The notes under the pieces were generated by a model. That model saw nothing but the letters and a program-made list of their open reading frames with translations. It did not search any database and was not told the origin of the DNA. From Vallitalea guaymasensis (GTDB lineage Bacteria; Bacillota; Clostridia; Lachnospirales; Vallitaleaceae), in assembly GCF_018141425.1 (NCBI RefSeq), contig NZ_CP058561.1:310001-374000 (forward strand): a DNA stretch of 64,000 nucleotides, in the 5' to 3' direction. This document shows, piece by piece, positions 30,689 through 36,521 of this stretch. Made by a program: the position numbers and the translations under genes. Position 1 is the stretch's first letter, and every line of letters begins with the position of its first letter.

Positions 30689-31333
30689 TTACTTTGAAAC
30701 ATTTTCCCAATCTTTAAGGAATCTTTCAATCCCTAGGTCTGTTAGTGGATGCTTAGTCATTTGCAACAGAACTTTGTGTGGTATTGTAGCAATATCTGCT
30801 CCAGCTAAAGCAGCTTGTGAAGCATGTAGAGGACTTCTAATACTAGCAGCTATAATTTCAGTTTTTATATCGTGTATATAAAATATTTCTGATATATCTT
30901 CAACCAGGTCCATACCAACTGTGTCAATATCATCTAATCTTCCTATGAAAGGACTAACATAAGTTGCTCCTGCTCTTGCGGCAAGTAATGCTTGTGAAGC
31001 TGAAAATATCAATGTAACATTTGTTTTTATCCCTTCAGAAGTAAGGATTTTTACTGCTTTCAATCCTTCAATAGTCATAGGAATCTTGATTACTATATTT
31101 TTATGTATAGTAGCAAGCTCACGAGCTTCTTCTATCATACCTTTAGATTCAAGACTGATTACTTCCGCACTTATTGGTCCATCAACAATACTTGTTATTT
31201 CAGTAACAACTTCTTTAAAATCCCTACCCTCTTTTGCTATTAAAGAAGGATTAGTGGTAACCCCACAAATTACACCCATTTCCTCTGCTTCTTTTATTTC
31301 ATTAACATTAGCTGTATCAATAAATATTTTCAT
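30689..31333 (-). CDS. Transaldolase (TalC/fructose-6-phosphate aldolase-like)
   Basis: A small-subunit transaldolase of 214 residues, the usual length of the TalC/Fsa subfamily. It has [24 protein letters not shown] at 24-31 and the Schiff-base lysine Lys83 in VIKIPMT. Later come [31 protein letters not shown] and IIAASIRSP. It acts in the non-oxidative pentose phosphate pathway or as an aldolase. It is monocistronic with a GGGAGA site. Sequence alone does not separate Fsa from true transaldolase. Confidence 0.9.
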
Positions 31334-31513
31334 TTTTTTCCTATCTCCCTTCTTAAATTTTTACATATTAATATTATCAGAATTTCAATGTTTTATAAAG
31401 TGTTTTACATATATATTTTTACTATTTGTTATTTTCATTAAAAGTTAATTAAAGAAAAAGCACTCACAGGCAGTAAGGCTTAATCTAATTAACTAATAAT
31501 ATTTTTGTAGTTT

Positions 31514-31702
31514 TTAATTATCACATTTATCAAGCAGCTCTTGTAACTTTACAGCTTGATGTCCTTCTTCCTCTGCAAATTTTTTAAAACAGCTACTAAT
31601 TTCTTGGTCGTCTATATTTTTTGCGTGAGATTCATAGTCACGTACTTTTTCTTGTGTATCCAATATAGCTTTTTTCAAACAATCTTTTGGTGATAACTCC
31701 AT
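31514..31702 (-). CDS. Small helical protein, ferritin-like half-domain
   Basis: A protein of 62 residues, all helical by pattern. It has Glu/His-containing heptads (DTQEKVRDYESHAKNI and FKKFAEEEGHQAVKLQELL) resembling one helical hairpin of rubrerythrin or ferritin-like proteins. An EExxH-like EEEGH is present. It is too short for a complete four-helix bundle and could dimerise. Good AGGAGG site. Family assignment is tentative. Confidence 0.55.
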   Translation of the reverse strand: MELSPKDCLKKAILDTQEKVRDYESHAKNIDDQEISSCFKKFAEEEGHQAVKLQELLDKCDN

Positions 31703-31800
31703 AATATACCTCCTAGAAATTTAATCATATTTATTTTAACCCATTTTTATAGTAATATTCTATATTATTATCACAACAGATATTTCCCAGGAAAACAAAA

Positions 31801-31838
31801 AACCTAGGAATTAGTATGAGTTCACTAATTCCTAGGTT
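31801..31838. terminator. Strong bidirectional hairpin
   Basis: A perfect 15-bp stem, AACCTAGGAATTAGT with its complement, around ATGAGTTC. A-rich sequence to its left gives a T-run on the minus strand. It terminates the flavoprotein gene that ends at 31860. Confidence 0.8.
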
Positions 31839-31859
31839 ATTTACATTTTTATAAAATTA

Positions 31860-32429
31860 TTATTTGATCTTATCCAACAACCAAGCCATATTATCACCAA
31901 GGTTCTTCATATTCTCTATACCTTCTGTATCCTTAACAACATCACCAGCAGCTCTGCCTAAGCCAAGATTCCAATAATTTGCTCCTACTACTATAGCCTC
32001 TGAAATAGTAAACAAGTTATTCATTGAATTGAATGCTGCTATTGCTCCATCTCTTCTTTGTGAAACAACGGCTGAACAGACTTTTCTTTTTAATAAACGT
32101 TCTGGACGAGTTACATAACCTACTCTATCAATAAAAGCTTTCATTTGAGCAGATAATCCTCCGAAATAAACAGGAGACCCTAATATAATTCCATCTGCTT
32201 CAATAATTTTTTCAATACTTTCATTAATGATATCATCATCAAATATACATCTATTATTACCATTGGTCCTACATTTCCCACAACCAATACATCCATGTAT
32301 ATTTCTATTTCCAACTTGAATAAGTTCTGTTTCTATACTATGCTCTTCCAATTGCTTCAAAACCGTCTGTAATAAAGTATATGTATTGCCTTCTTTTCTA
32401 GGACTTCCATTAAACGCTATAACTTTCAT
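31860..32429 (-). CDS. Flavodoxin family protein (iron-sulfur flavoprotein-like)
   Basis: A protein of 189 residues. It starts MKVIAFNGSPRKEGNTYTLL, the FMN phosphate loop of NADPH-dependent FMN reductases. CIGCGKCRTNGNNRC (near 47-60) could bind a 4Fe-4S cluster, as in iron-sulfur flavoproteins. Later come DGIILGSPVYFGGLSAQMKAFIDR and VVGANYWNLGLG. The ATG at 32429 is used because ATGGAGGTAAAT upstream contains its GGAGG site. Electron donor and acceptor unknown. Confidence 0.85.
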   Translation of the reverse strand: MKVIAFNGSPRKEGNTYTLLQTVLKQLEEHSIETELIQVGNRNIHGCIGCGKCRTNGNNRCIFDDDIINESIEKIIEADGIILGSPVYFGGLSAQMKAFIDRVGYVTRPERLLKRKVCSAVVSQRRDGAIAAFNSMNNLFTISEAIVVGANYWNLGLGRAAGDVVKDTEGIENMKNLGDNMAWLLDKIK

Positions 32430-32550
32430 ATTTACCTCCAATATAACTTAATAATATTATTACCTATCATTATAAAATATTAAGTAACCTACTAAATTAT
32501 TATTTAATATCCTATTATTTTATATTAAATTATATATAAAATCAATCTCA

Positions 32551-34335
32551 TTAGTTATTTATTAATTTCTCAAGATGTTCTCTTCCCTTATTACCATATT
32601 CCATACCAATACTAGGATTTTTAACAAAGAACTCTAAACATCTAGTCAGATTATCCACATCATTATAATTAACTAATAATCCTGTTTTATTATCCTTAAC
32701 TAACATAGTATTACCTTTTACATTGGTAGCAACTATAGGTTTACTTGAAGCCATTGCCTCCATCAATGTTCTTGGTGGCATACCTTCCTTTTCAGAAGTC
32801 AATACTACAACATCCATTATAGCTAATAACTTCAATATATCTTTTCTATAACCTAAGAACAGAATTCTATCTGATAACTGCTCTCTCTCAACTTTTTCTT
32901 TTAATTTGTTTTCTAGAGACCCGTCACCAACTATAATACATACTACATCATTATGCTTTGGTAATACTTTTTTAAGACCATCTATTAAGAAATCATAACC
33001 TTTAACTGGTTCAAGTCTGGCTATCATACCAATTATGTATTTATTATCTATTCCCAAAGAACCTTTTAAATCTTTTTTATCACTTTCTGAAATCATTTTC
33101 ATACTATTATCATTAGCCACTAAATCAAAATCAAGATTCGCTCCTCCTATTTGAGTATCTGATAGAGTAGTTTTCAATTCTGATGCCATATTGGATAATT
33201 TTTGAGAAAGATCAGCTATATCAGCTATTGCATTAGTCTGAACACCTGTTGCCGAAGCAATTTCCTTACTACCATTTGCAATTTGTGAACTTGCATCTGC
33301 TGAATTTTTGATACCATCAACCATGTTGGTTATATTCTGTGCTATAACATTAAATGTTCCAGAGGTTTCTTTTAATATCTGACCACCTTGGATTATATCT
33401 TTATTGTTAGAGTCAATTATTTCTACTGTTTTTATAGTTTCTTCTGAAAAAGTACTGATTAGTTCACTTATGCTTTGTAATGAATCTTGAGTATTTCCTG
33501 CTAACTCTCTAACTTCATCTGCAACAACTGCAAAACCTTTTCCAGTATCACCTGCTCTTGCAGCTTCTATTGCAGCATTCAAAGCTAATAGATTGGTTTG
33601 TTTTGCTATATTGGATATAACATCAATTATACCCTGCATTTTTTTAGACGCTGAGTTAAGTTCTTTTATACTTAGAGTAGCAGAATTAGCATTTTCAACT
33701 ATATTCTCCATTTTGTGTTCTAGATTTCTTAATGACGTGATTCCTTCATTAGTAAGTTCTTCTACTTTGTAAGCACCCTCTGCTATTTCCTCGATGCTTC
33801 CACTTAGATTGGATGTATTAGACGTTAATTCTTGTAATGTTGTAGATACTTCCTGCATAACACAAGAGGTTCTATGTGTTATATCAGCTAGATTCCTACT
33901 TGTATCTGAAGATTCTTCTGAGATTTCATCTAATTCTTTCACAAAATTACCTACATTATCTAATAAGTAATTAAAAGTTGCTGCCAATTTTCCTATTTCA
34001 TCATTGGAATCAACAGGAATCTGTTTTCCAAAACCACTTTGTGTAACGTTTTCAGCATGTTCTAATAGATTTTCTAGTCTATTTTTAAGTTGTTTTTCTA
34101 CTAGCATTTCGTCTGGGGTTTCTTTGATTTTCTTCTTATCATATTTGCTAAATCTTCTTAATAATATCAAGCCTATCAATAGTATACATAATGTTATAAG
34201 ACTTACAATAAGTATATCAGCTATCAAAAACGAAACAACGATACTCGCAATTAAGCATATACTTAAAACAATGGAACTTTTGATGTTATACGATTTTGTA
34301 TAACTCTTAATAGATAAATCATTATCATTTGTCAT
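32551..34335 (-). CDS. Membrane chemoreceptor-like protein fused to a GT4 glycosyltransferase half
   Basis: A protein of about 594 residues with an unusual architecture. Two membrane helices (about 20-60) lie almost back to back, so there is no periplasmic sensor. A HAMP-like region (about 62-135) and a full methyl-accepting chemotaxis coiled-coil follow, with the conserved tip [18 protein letters not shown] and [12 protein letters not shown] (about 245-280). After residue about 405 comes the C-terminal half of a GT-B glycosyltransferase: [63 protein letters not shown], ending at 594. The N-terminal half of that enzyme is absent. The frame is open throughout. ATG 34335 is preferred, with GGGTGG before it. 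Its function is not known. Confidence 0.8.
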
Positions 34336-34446
34336 TACATTACCACCCATCTTATCATTTTTGTAGAATTTTGCCGAAAAACTTTATTGTAATTATATCA
34401 AAGTAATGCAATTTTTTCAACTAAAGTATTAAATTACTTAACATAA

Positions 34447-34512
34447 AAAGGATGTATAACATATATATAATATAGGTCTTAAGAACTATAAATATATGAT
34501 ATGACATCCCTT
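34447..34512 (-). terminator. Long terminator hairpin of the 44-residue gene
   Basis: An imperfect hairpin built from AAAGGATGT/ACATCCCTTT, inner AT-rich pairs and TATAG/CTATA around GTCTTAAGAA. The minus strand continues with TTTTT. Confidence 0.7.
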
Positions 34513-34528
34513 TCATTTGCTTGTTGTT

Positions 34529-34663
34529 TTATACATCATTATTTTTAACTGAATGTTTTTTCTTATTAGGATTGTGATTCATATTCTCTCTTGTTATAGG
34601 CGTTTGGTAATTGCATTTTTCCATTCTTGCTCTTTTATTATCTGGCTGACTATCTTTTGGCAT
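34529..34663 (-). CDS. Small basic hydrophilic protein, 44 residues
   Basis: Start ATG 34663 follows AGAGGTGATGATTA, an excellent ribosome binding site. The product begins MPKDSQPDNKRARMEKCNYQ and ends NPNKKKHSVKNNDV. It is charged, lacks any hydrophobic segment and contains one cysteine. A strong terminator follows. The composition resembles small spore or nucleic-acid-binding proteins, but I do not recognise the family. The good binding site and dedicated terminator argue that it is real. Confidence 0.65.
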   Translation of the reverse strand: MPKDSQPDNKRARMEKCNYQTPITRENMNHNPNKKKHSVKNNDV

Positions 34664-34856
34664 TAATCATCACCTCTTTTTTCATTCTAATATTTTATGT
34701 TTATAGTATGTTCTTGATTAAAATATTTATTACTAAATTACTAGATAAATTAATAAATGAGTTTCCTCATTATTTATATAGTAAAAATCTTAAATAGCCA
34801 AAATTCTGCTAACTAGAAGAAAAAAATGTTTTGTGATTACATTGAAGGGACTTAAC

Positions 34857-35025
34857 GCAAAATAGTATATGTATATGTGAAGTAGTGAGGCAGGACGCCG
34901 AACCCAGCTTTTAATCTGACAGCCCTACTGGACTGTCAGAAATAATTATGGACTCGATGTCCATTATTATTTGTTGAATCAGGACGAGCAAGTAGCTGGC
35001 GTAACATATACATATACTATTTTGC
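34857..35025. ncRNA. Predicted structured non-coding RNA (class not identified)
   Basis: A perfect 22-bp stem (34857-34878 with 35004-35025) encloses 125 bases with more structure. TCTGACAG/CTGTCAGA forms a hairpin at 34915-34940. AATAATTATGGAC pairs with GTCCATTATTATT at 34941-34971 with one mismatch. CAGCT at 34905-34909 pairs with AGCTG at 34994-34998. CAGGACG occurs twice, once in each internal strand (34891 and 34980). The segment is much more GC-rich and better folded than its surroundings and has no open reading frame. The neighbouring DUF3783 gene has its own promoter downstream, so this looks independent. The orientation is uncertain. The raiA motif is one class to test. Confidence 0.6.
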
Positions 35026-35110
35026 AAATACCAAGTCAGAACAAAACTCTTTTTTCTGACTTACTTGCAAAATAATTTAGTTTAAAGCTGATACTTAAAT
35101 ATTAATTTCA

Positions 35111-35139
35111 TTGACATCTAACTTTTTTAGAAGTATATT
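35111..35139 (+). promoter_or_regulatory. Promoter of the DUF3783 gene
   Basis: TTGACA (35111-35116) and TATATT (35134-35139) with a 17-base spacer. It lies 82 bases before the start codon and downstream of the structured element. Confidence 0.8.
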
Positions 35140-35220
35140 CATTATATTAACTATATTTATAAAAATGCTTTTGTATATAATAATATTATTTAATCAAGAA
35201 TAAAATTGAGGTGATTTTTT

Positions 35221-35628
35221 ATGTCATTTGAGCAAATTAATAATGAGGATAGTAAAAGACCGGAAGGTAGAAATTGTATTCTAATATATGGTTATAATTC
35301 TGAAGAAATTAGTACCATTGAAAAATTCTCGTTGGGTAGGGGTATTGATGAATGTGTTGTAGTCACAGATGATATGTTGGGAAACAAAATCAAAGATATC
35401 ATAGAAAATAATATTATACCTGTGAAATATAAGACAGGAATAAAATCCAAAACCATTGTTTTTAACGCACTTTCCAACAAAGAAGTCCATTCTTTCATTA
35501 ATTTATTCAAGGATACTGGACTTAAGAAACCTATATACGCTGTAGCAACTCCAACTTCAGTTAAATGGCAATTTGGAGAATTGATAAAAGAATTAATAAA
35601 GGAAAGAATGAGTATGAGCAAGCATTAG
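35221..35628 (+). CDS. DUF3783 domain protein
   Basis: A protein of 135 residues with the DUF3783 pattern: NCILIYGYNSEEISTIEKF, then TIVFNALSNKEVHSFI and KKPIYAVATPTSVKWQFGEL. Members are small Firmicutes proteins of unknown function. The GAGGTGA site is strong. The stop codon lies within the terminator hairpin (35616-35635), a compact gene end. It is monocistronic with a consensus-like promoter. Confidence 0.82.
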   Translation: MSFEQINNEDSKRPEGRNCILIYGYNSEEISTIEKFSLGRGIDECVVVTDDMLGNKIKDIIENNIIPVKYKTGIKSKTIVFNALSNKEVHSFINLFKDTGLKKPIYAVATPTSVKWQFGELIKELIKERMSMSKH

Positions 35629-35640
35629 CTTGCTCATTTT
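35616..35640 (+). terminator. Intrinsic terminator overlapping the DUF3783 stop codon
   Basis: GAGCAAGC pairs with GCTTGCTC around ATTA, followed by ATTTTTAAT. The TAG stop (35626-35628) is inside the hairpin. Confidence 0.88.
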
Positions 35641-35645
35641 TAATA

Positions 35646-36521
35646 TTATTTTATAGTAACATAATAGTTAGCTTTAAATTCTTTTGATACTTCTAGTTTT
35701 TGAATACCTCTTTTAGTTTTGTATTGTTTATCTGTATCTTCAAAATCAGCTACTCCATACCAAGGTTCAATACATACAAAAGGAGAGTTGTCAGGTTGTC
35801 CCCAAATACCTAAATATGGGAATCCATCATATTCAACGCATACTTCTCTGCTGCTTTTCTTGCTCTTCAATGATAGGCTGTTGGATTCCACATCCAATAA
35901 GATAATTGCCCCTTTATTGAATATATCCTTAGTCATAGGTATTACTTTTTCATTTTCTAGAAATGGTATACTTTTTAAAGAAACACTGTTTTCAATATTT
36001 AATTCATATTTATTCACTGTTTCAAGCTTATCGAATTCCAGATAATAATCTTCTAATCTCTCTTCTTCCATAATAGGTATATTGAATCCAGGATGTGCAC
36101 CTATGGAGAAATATACTTCTGTTGAGTCTAGATTCTTGACTTCATAGCCTATGTTAAGACTATTACCTTTCAATTCATAAGTAATAGTTAATAAGAATTT
36201 ATAAGGGTATTTCTTTAATGATTCTTCATTATATTTAAGCTTGTATTCAAGTATTTCTTTATTCTTTTGTTCTACTTGAAATTCCATATCTCTAGCAAAT
36301 CCATGCTGACCTAATTCATATTTTTCATTTTCAATATAATATTCGTTATCCTTTAGTTTCCCAACAATAGGAAATAAGATAGGTGATTTTCTTCCCCATA
36401 CTGATGGATCACCCTGCCATAAATATTCTAATCCATCCTCTTTAGTTTTTATACTTGATAACTCTGCTCCAAGACTATTGACTTCAATTTTTAGAACATC
36501 ATTTTCTAATACATTTATCAT
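35646..36521 (-). CDS. Aldose 1-epimerase family protein
   Basis: A protein of 291 residues with the galactose mutarotase-like fold. It has INVLENDVLKIEVNSLGAELSSIKTKEDG, YLWQGDPSVWGRKSPILFPIVGKLKD, GQHGFARDMEF (catalytic His region) and SIGAHPGFNIP. This is the LacX/YeaD-like subgroup, acting on aldoses or hexose phosphates. The ATG at 36521 is chosen because GGAGGAATGAAT precedes it. It is convergent with DUF3783 and about 95 bases downstream of mtnA. Confidence 0.87.
   Translation of the reverse strand: MINVLENDVLKIEVNSLGAELSSIKTKEDGLEYLWQGDPSVWGRKSPILFPIVGKLKDNEYYIENEKYELGQHGFARDMEFQVEQKNKEILEYKLKYNEESLKKYPYKFLLTITYELKGNSLNIGYEVKNLDSTEVYFSIGAHPGFNIPIMEEERLEDYYLEFDKLETVNKYELNIENSVSLKSIPFLENEKVIPMTKDIFNKGAIILLDVESNSLSLKSKKSSREVCVEYDGFPYLGIWGQPDNSPFVCIEPWYGVADFEDTDKQYKTKRGIQKLEVSKEFKANYYVTIK

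Follow-up and report, generated by a model that had tools for sequence, protein, structure and literature searches.

A chemoreceptor joined to the donor-binding half of a GT4 glycosyltransferase, a candidate nucleotide-sugar receptor in Vallitalea guaymasensis and a few other bacteria

The signals that chemoreceptors are known to sense are mostly chemicals outside the cell or the redox state. One gene in the window examined here (64,000 nucleotides of Vallitalea guaymasensis, contig NZ_CP058561.1) joins a chemoreceptor to part of a glycosyltransferase, which raises the question of whether it encodes a signalling protein with an unusual input or is an accident that left two genes in one frame. 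An earlier sequence-only reading had offered both possibilities: a signalling protein of a new kind, responsive to nucleotide-sugar levels, or a deletion or assembly error. The gene occupies 32551..34350 of the minus strand, on which all features of the protein given below also lie, and its 599 codons and stop form the uninterrupted frame which that reading had described. The boundary drawn there matches Met6, the second ATG, at 34335. Because a GGGTGGT stretch lies immediately 5' of Met6 (three other members of the protein family show it too, as M(I)GG), Met6 is a plausible and even likely alternative start.

Pfam searches and structural models gave the domain order of the protein as transmembrane hairpin, HAMP, chemoreceptor (MCP) signalling rod, and GT4 donor domain. 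By hydropathy, the N terminus is a single hydrophobic stretch (residues 22-68, 34147..34287), for which a full-length model of modest confidence predicts two helices (10-42 and 46-75) with almost no loop between them; the stretch and its turn of about 3 residues leave no room for a periplasmic domain, as expected from the two adjacent membrane helices noted before. A HAMP domain follows at residues 87-133 (33952..34092; PF00672, E 7.7e-9), and then a signalling coiled coil at residues ~136-395 (33166..33945), modelled as two long helices (118-265 and 271-398) with a hairpin tip near residues 251-281. The MCPsignal match within it (PF00015, residues 225-368, E 6.3e-41) scores 140.5 bits against a curated cut-off of 34.6, and the tip expected to contact CheA and CheW has the same consensus as the other receptors of this genome. 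A linker (residues 396-435, 33046..33165) starts with a conserved (D/E)xxIG motif, lies at the GT-B interdomain hinge, and leads into the C-terminal, donor-binding Rossmann domain of a GT4 enzyme (residues 436-598, 32557..33045), which was recognised by Pfam, an AlphaFold2 model and Foldseek. The Glycos_transf_1 match (PF00534, residues 425-591, E 1.4e-35) shows that the signalling rod is followed, within one reading frame, by a recognised domain at the position of a C-terminal input domain, and Pfam gave no match to the N-terminal half of a GT-B enzyme anywhere in the protein. The domain content proposed from the letters alone, half a glycosyltransferase included, thus agrees with the profile searches.

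The sequence-only reading had suggested looking for the same domain order in other genomes. We searched the window's own genome and 58 relatives, 22 of these 59 (G000-G021) belonging to the window's taxonomic family, and, together with a scan of public genomes, found the intact full-length protein in eight genomes of two lineages: 5 of the 22 from that family and 3/3 genomes covered of another small class. With the full order recurring in eight genomes, chance is not at issue. Besides the window's own copy, the full-length matches in the family showed identities of 94% (G005), 72% (G001), 62% (G004) and 49% (G008), and four of the six genomes of the window's genus carry the gene. The scan of public genomes returned five loci, three of them fusions (L040, L041 and L042) and two of them free GT4s; it added L041, from the class in which all three genomes covered have the fusion. 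In a search with the A2 profile, the 392 genomes sampled from the order yielded no match at E below 1e-100 beyond the five members from the window's taxonomic family, and the 391 from the class and 398 from the phylum (overlapping samples, in each genome of which scoring was limited to a certain number of candidates) contained only the window's own fusion. The best A2 matches outside the window's family were free GT4s at E ~1e-47, while all eight members scored 1e-104 or better; no fusion outside the two lineages was found with this profile, which a fusion to an unrelated glycosyltransferase would escape. The fusion family is real but rare. Its two lineages appear to belong to different classes, since one class was represented by three genomes and the other by hundreds.

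Two further observations came from these comparisons. Measured against the window's glycosyltransferase domain, that of G764, from the other lineage, reaches 57% identity, more than the 53% of G008, which belongs to the window's own family, and for the rod the order is reversed (46% for G764, 55% for G008), a hint, at the level of sequence identity, of transfer or of uneven rates. A 567-aa frame of G646 with a GT4 match was considered as a possible further fusion and not counted: it has ~230 residues before the GT4 core and 184 after it, and its displayed tail has a hydrophobic segment and no chemoreceptor tip.

We then compared the locus among genomes. Downstream of the fused gene lies a gene for an NADPH-dependent FMN reductase (31860..32441, minus strand; PF03358, E 3.4e-35), which is found in all six genus genomes examined, with or without the fused gene, and which we do not claim as a functional part of the system. 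In G003, a DUF3783 gene is followed in the same order by the FMN reductase and transaldolase/fructose-6-phosphate aldolase genes, with 563 bases at the site of the fused gene; G002 has the same flanking order with 510 bases there (the flank families in both were taken from Pfam matches of the window's copies). No frame of at least 70 residues was listed in either gap. A test set beforehand was whether relatives would carry separate full-length chemoreceptor and GT4 genes at this place; these two congeners have neither, which speaks against a local deletion.

Surroundings differ elsewhere. G008 has different neighbours, with thiamine synthesis on one side, and in 3/3 genomes of the other lineage a GH3 glycosidase gene and a PdxA-family gene precede the fused gene (assigned by Pfam in G764 and by similarity in the others). 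Further upstream there, in the two of these three genomes with a contig that reaches that far, is a sugar-kinase-like SBD_N/NBD_C gene. Together these neighbours in the other lineage (L085:9849-16115; L080:4165-10499) hint at a link with sugar use. Pfam recognised no nucleotide-sugar enzyme among 25 neighbouring proteins, two of which had no family; the 25 do include several proteins acting on sugars, namely an aldose epimerase, a transaldolase and GH3. In the window, on the upstream side of the fused gene, perfect 22-nt inverted repeats flank 125 nt (34857-35025). A 17-base piece of the repeat occurs once in the window and, among 91 loci compared, again only in L013 of the same genome, apart from L001, which is the window's own place; on these loci it is possibly a small dispersed element. 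Rfam had no match in 31000-36000. Between the repeat and the fused gene, a small frame of 44 residues (MPKDSQPDNKRARMEKCNYQ...; 34529-34663, minus strand) sits behind a ribosome-binding-like stretch.

Conservation is distributed unevenly along the protein. Across the eight members, 36 of 75 positions are invariant in the tip block (residues 231-305), and the glycosyltransferase domain comes second with 60 of 163, followed by the two arms of the rod (22/95 and 19/90), the linker (4/40), HAMP (4/50) and the hairpin region (residues 1-85), where none of the 85 positions is invariant. In the other lineage HAMP is degenerate: the protein of G764, the one scanned from that lineage, gave no Pfam HAMP match at E<=1e-5. 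The ratio of nonsynonymous to synonymous change (dN/dS) between G000 and G005 was 0.029 for the rod, 0.101 for the glycosyltransferase domain, 0.128 for HAMP and 0.377 for the transmembrane region. For G000 and G001 the corresponding values were 0.084, 0.137, 0.188 and 0.234, which are rough only, because dS was 1.0-1.6, and above 1.4 for the rod and the glycosyltransferase domain; more distant pairs, with dS saturated or undefined and transmembrane values of 0.56-1.07, were left out. By these substitution patterns both halves are under selection, and because conservation of the glycosyltransferase domain is second only to that of the tip, with none in the transmembrane region, this domain is unlikely to be a decaying passenger.

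The receptor half departs from the other receptors of the genome in the length of its rod. In the five members from the window's taxonomic family, 148 residues separate the DExG motif of HAMP from the tip, compared to 169 in each of five other receptors of the same genome (those with the motif in register; of the remaining eight read, seven were unmatched and one, L012, matched elsewhere). The C-terminal arm has a matching gap of 21-22 residues relative to the other receptors in MAFFT alignments. Taken together, the anchor distances and this gap make the rod about three heptads (about 21 residues) per arm shorter; the estimate uses these two measures only, as counting heptads in pairwise alignments gave noisy gap positions. 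One receptor, L014, lacked such a gap in one alignment and, on that alignment, may have the same rod length as the fused receptor. The 44-heptad class is usual in Firmicutes, and if the other receptors belong to it, the fused receptor would be of class 38H. Receptors of different length classes have been described as forming separate arrays (PMC6759762). With its shorter rod, the fused receptor may accordingly stay outside the array of the others.

Methylation sites are likewise unusual. Chemoreceptors usually carry the consensus [ASTG][ASTG]xx[EQ][EQ]xx[ASTG][ASTG], which is lacking in Aer and hence is not required for membership. This strict pattern had no match in the window's protein or in six of the eight members overall (the exceptions being G004 with one match and G008 with two), and 12 of the 13 other receptors read from the window's genome have it (of a total of 16, L011, L014 and L019 fall outside this set). 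With a looser pattern, G000 and G005 had one match each, G004 and G008 two each, and the other four members none. By its signalling domain the fused protein is a chemoreceptor; whether it is methyl-accepting is doubtful.

We next asked what the glycosyltransferase half retains. Its AlphaFold2 model, built from six sequences, has a mean pLDDT of 82.6, and its best Foldseek match is HepE (4xsu; best E 4.6e-14, TM-score 0.71 of the query), the HepE matches including complexes with UDP and glucose or with UDP-glucose as well as apo forms. The full-length model has a low pTM of 0.37 and so does not fix the placement of this half against the rod. The Arg/Lys pair and two Glu residues typical of GT4 donor domains are present as R445, K450, E522 and E531, invariant in six members and unchanged in the two further ones. 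By alignment they correspond to R191, K196, E267 and E275 of PglH, of which the first two contact the pyrophosphate, the third the N-acetyl group and the fourth the ribose, and the only donor contact described in the N-terminal domain of PglH is H118 (PMC5792488). The WsaF paper describes a contact with O3 of the donor sugar for the first Glu in other GT4s, and one with the deoxyribose for the second Glu in WsaF (PMC3898925).

Around these residues the fused proteins differ from free GT4s. The spacing of E522 and E531 is EX8E, not EX7E, in all eight members, which generalises the one-residue excess that the sequence-only reading had pointed out, and the extra residue lies in an EG-x-PP loop between the two Glu that is likewise found in 8/8. 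EX7E was read directly in 27 of 30 free GT4 rows; the other three are shifted by one column, with Thr or Arg aligned to the first Glu and Glu next to it, and by eye are EX7E again. The corresponding loop of PglH (L269, P270 and T271) has been linked to sugar specificity and is in contact with the pyrophosphate (PMC5792488), so the change sits where it would matter. In the next motif, a position that is Glu or Asp in 27 of the 30 free rows is taken in the eight members by Met, Ile, Val or Tyr. Both ends are also truncated, at the boundaries of the GT-B domains. The half starts at the interdomain hinge, where alignments of free GT4s begin in or before the linker, and it ends 9-12 residues past a reference Arg in 8/8 members, compared to 23-32 residues in all but one of 32 free rows; that one carries an additional C-terminal region. 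The free rows were loci chosen as best matches and are no random sample. What is missing matches the terminal helix of PglH, which folds back onto the N-terminal domain (PMC5792488). Because both the N-terminal acceptor domain and this crossing helix are absent, we do not file the fused protein as a GT4 enzyme.

The cellular setting suits a receptor. CheW-domain proteins were found in 6/6 fusion genomes searched (all but G765 and G766), each with a CheA-sized frame of at least 660 residues, and CheR and flagellin were each found in 8/8. The reading we favour, with a probability of about 0.5, is that of a chemoreceptor whose cytoplasmic C-terminal input is the GT4 donor domain and which probably reports a nucleotide sugar to CheA. 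The hairpin would anchor a dimer, HAMP and rod would form the receptor, and the conserved tip would bind CheA and CheW. The donor domain is attached where the coiled coil should return to its membrane-proximal end, and we infer that it binds a nucleotide or nucleotide sugar through the retained residues, R445 and K450 holding the pyrophosphate, E531 the ribose, and E522 with the EG-x-PP loop the sugar. Since the acceptor-binding domain is absent, the sugar would presumably not be transferred. Binding would instead displace the dimer's two donor domains relative to one another or to the HAMP end, and the shift, once transmitted to the C-terminal helix of the rod, would alter CheA activity. Donor binding turns the domains of MshA by 97 degrees, with smaller changes in other retaining GT-B enzymes (PMC3898925), which suggests how binding might set the rod in motion. 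Since the canonical methylation consensus is mostly gone, the receptor would probably report an absolute metabolic level with little adaptation, and the cell would thereby tie its swimming to the activated sugar at its disposal.

Of the original idea, then, the conserved signalling protein with its donor-site residues kept is borne out, and that it reads sugar levels is what we infer from those residues. If true, swimming would be linked directly to the capacity for building polysaccharide and cell wall, and a transferase domain would have turned sensor by shedding its acceptor half. We put forward more tentatively a larger claim, that the family forms a new chemoreceptor class: a nucleotide-sugar sensor in which EX8E trades catalysis for sensing, with little or no adaptation by methylation and a rod too short for the main array.

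Several other explanations could account for parts of these data. The glycosyltransferase half may be a degenerate fold reused for docking or scaffolding, binding a protein partner such as a polysaccharide or envelope enzyme and sensing no small molecule. The universal EX8E, the loss of the acidic residue of the next motif and the lack of an acceptor domain all fit this account, and judged from the residues alone the altered loop and lost acid could also mean that sugar binding has been lost; a pure scaffold, however, would have no need of the donor-site Arg, Lys and pair of Glu, all of which are invariant, and we consider this account unlikely, if worth keeping in mind. The input might otherwise come from the other end of the protein, with the hairpin and HAMP sensing a membrane or energy state in the manner of Aer and the glycosyltransferase half only modulating or localising the receptor. 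A hairpin and HAMP without a periplasmic domain, and few methylation sites, are what such a receptor would have, but the supposed sensor would then be the least conserved part of the protein, with far fewer invariant positions than the domain given the minor role, and we find this improbable.

Retention of all four donor-site residues would also be expected of a working split glycosyltransferase, in which a separate protein supplies the acceptor half and the rod serves only to bring the enzyme to the array or the pole; split GT-B enzymes exist, Alg13/Alg14 being an example. Against this, the GT4 N-terminal family PF13439 gave 47 rows in all eight genomes, 46 of them in frames of at least 318 residues, long enough for a whole enzyme, and the only shorter frame (203 aa, G766:C40:102-320) starts a contig and may be cut. 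No separate acceptor-half partner was found in the eight genomes with PF13439 (PF13579 and PF13477 lay outside the search), and Pfam found no glycosyltransferase half among the 25 scanned neighbours, which makes a split enzyme quite improbable. As for a functionless product of a chance deletion or a chimeric assembly, we found nothing in its support: the gene is full length in eight genomes at low dN/dS, the orthologous sites of G002 and G003 are empty of separate parts, and the window's genome is a single contig of 5,626,074 bases (5.63 Mb). We regard this explanation as scarcely credible.

How does the chemoreceptor with a putative donor-domain input compare with known systems? Aer of Escherichia coli has a hairpin anchor, HAMP and a cytoplasmic input, and works independently of methylation. 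The fused protein shares the anchor, HAMP and cytoplasmic input; the input of Aer differs in being an N-terminal PAS domain with FAD. A C-terminal input domain marks a known, if poorly characterised, group of chemoreceptors, for which one survey, naming CZB, counts at least 17 kinds in Pfam (PMC7390727). Receptors of the MCP-CZB type are alike in having a cytoplasmic input domain after the rod and a conserved tip, and differ in the domain added, which here is a GT4 donor domain (PMC7390727). No MCP-glycosyltransferase fusion is named in the titles and abstract openings of the literature we found, a scope outside which the supplementary list of the 17 kinds in PMC7390727 falls, and a word search of the V. 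guaymasensis genome paper (PMC6163223) returned neither 'chemotaxis' nor 'glycosyltransferase'.

On the enzyme side, the GT4s HepE/Alr3699, PglA, PglH and BshA share the C-terminal Rossmann donor domain, the Arg/Lys pair and the two donor-site Glu. Unlike them, the fused protein has no acceptor domain, no terminal helix, and EX8E in place of EX7E; unlike free GT4s, which mostly have Glu or Asp in the next motif, it has a hydrophobic or aromatic residue there. For the idea that a glycosyltransferase may inform cell behaviour, UgtP, OpgH and EpsE (the last a member of family GT2) may serve as precedents by analogy, and not as evidence for the fused protein. UgtP of Bacillus subtilis, an earlier case of a glycosyltransferase that reports UDP-glucose, and OpgH of E. 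coli are described as linking UDP-glucose to cell division, but they are complete enzymes that act on FtsZ and are not fused to receptors (PMC3723540). EpsE, the flagellar clutch of B. subtilis, is a glycosyltransferase-like protein that controls motility; its target is the flagellar rotor, and no chemoreceptor mediates its action (PMC3000366). Archaeal REC-BcsA fusions also join a signalling domain to a glycosyltransferase-like domain (PMC5847659); there a receiver is joined to a cellulose-synthase-like glycosyltransferase as the presumed output, whereas the glycosyltransferase half of the fused chemoreceptor is the presumed input.
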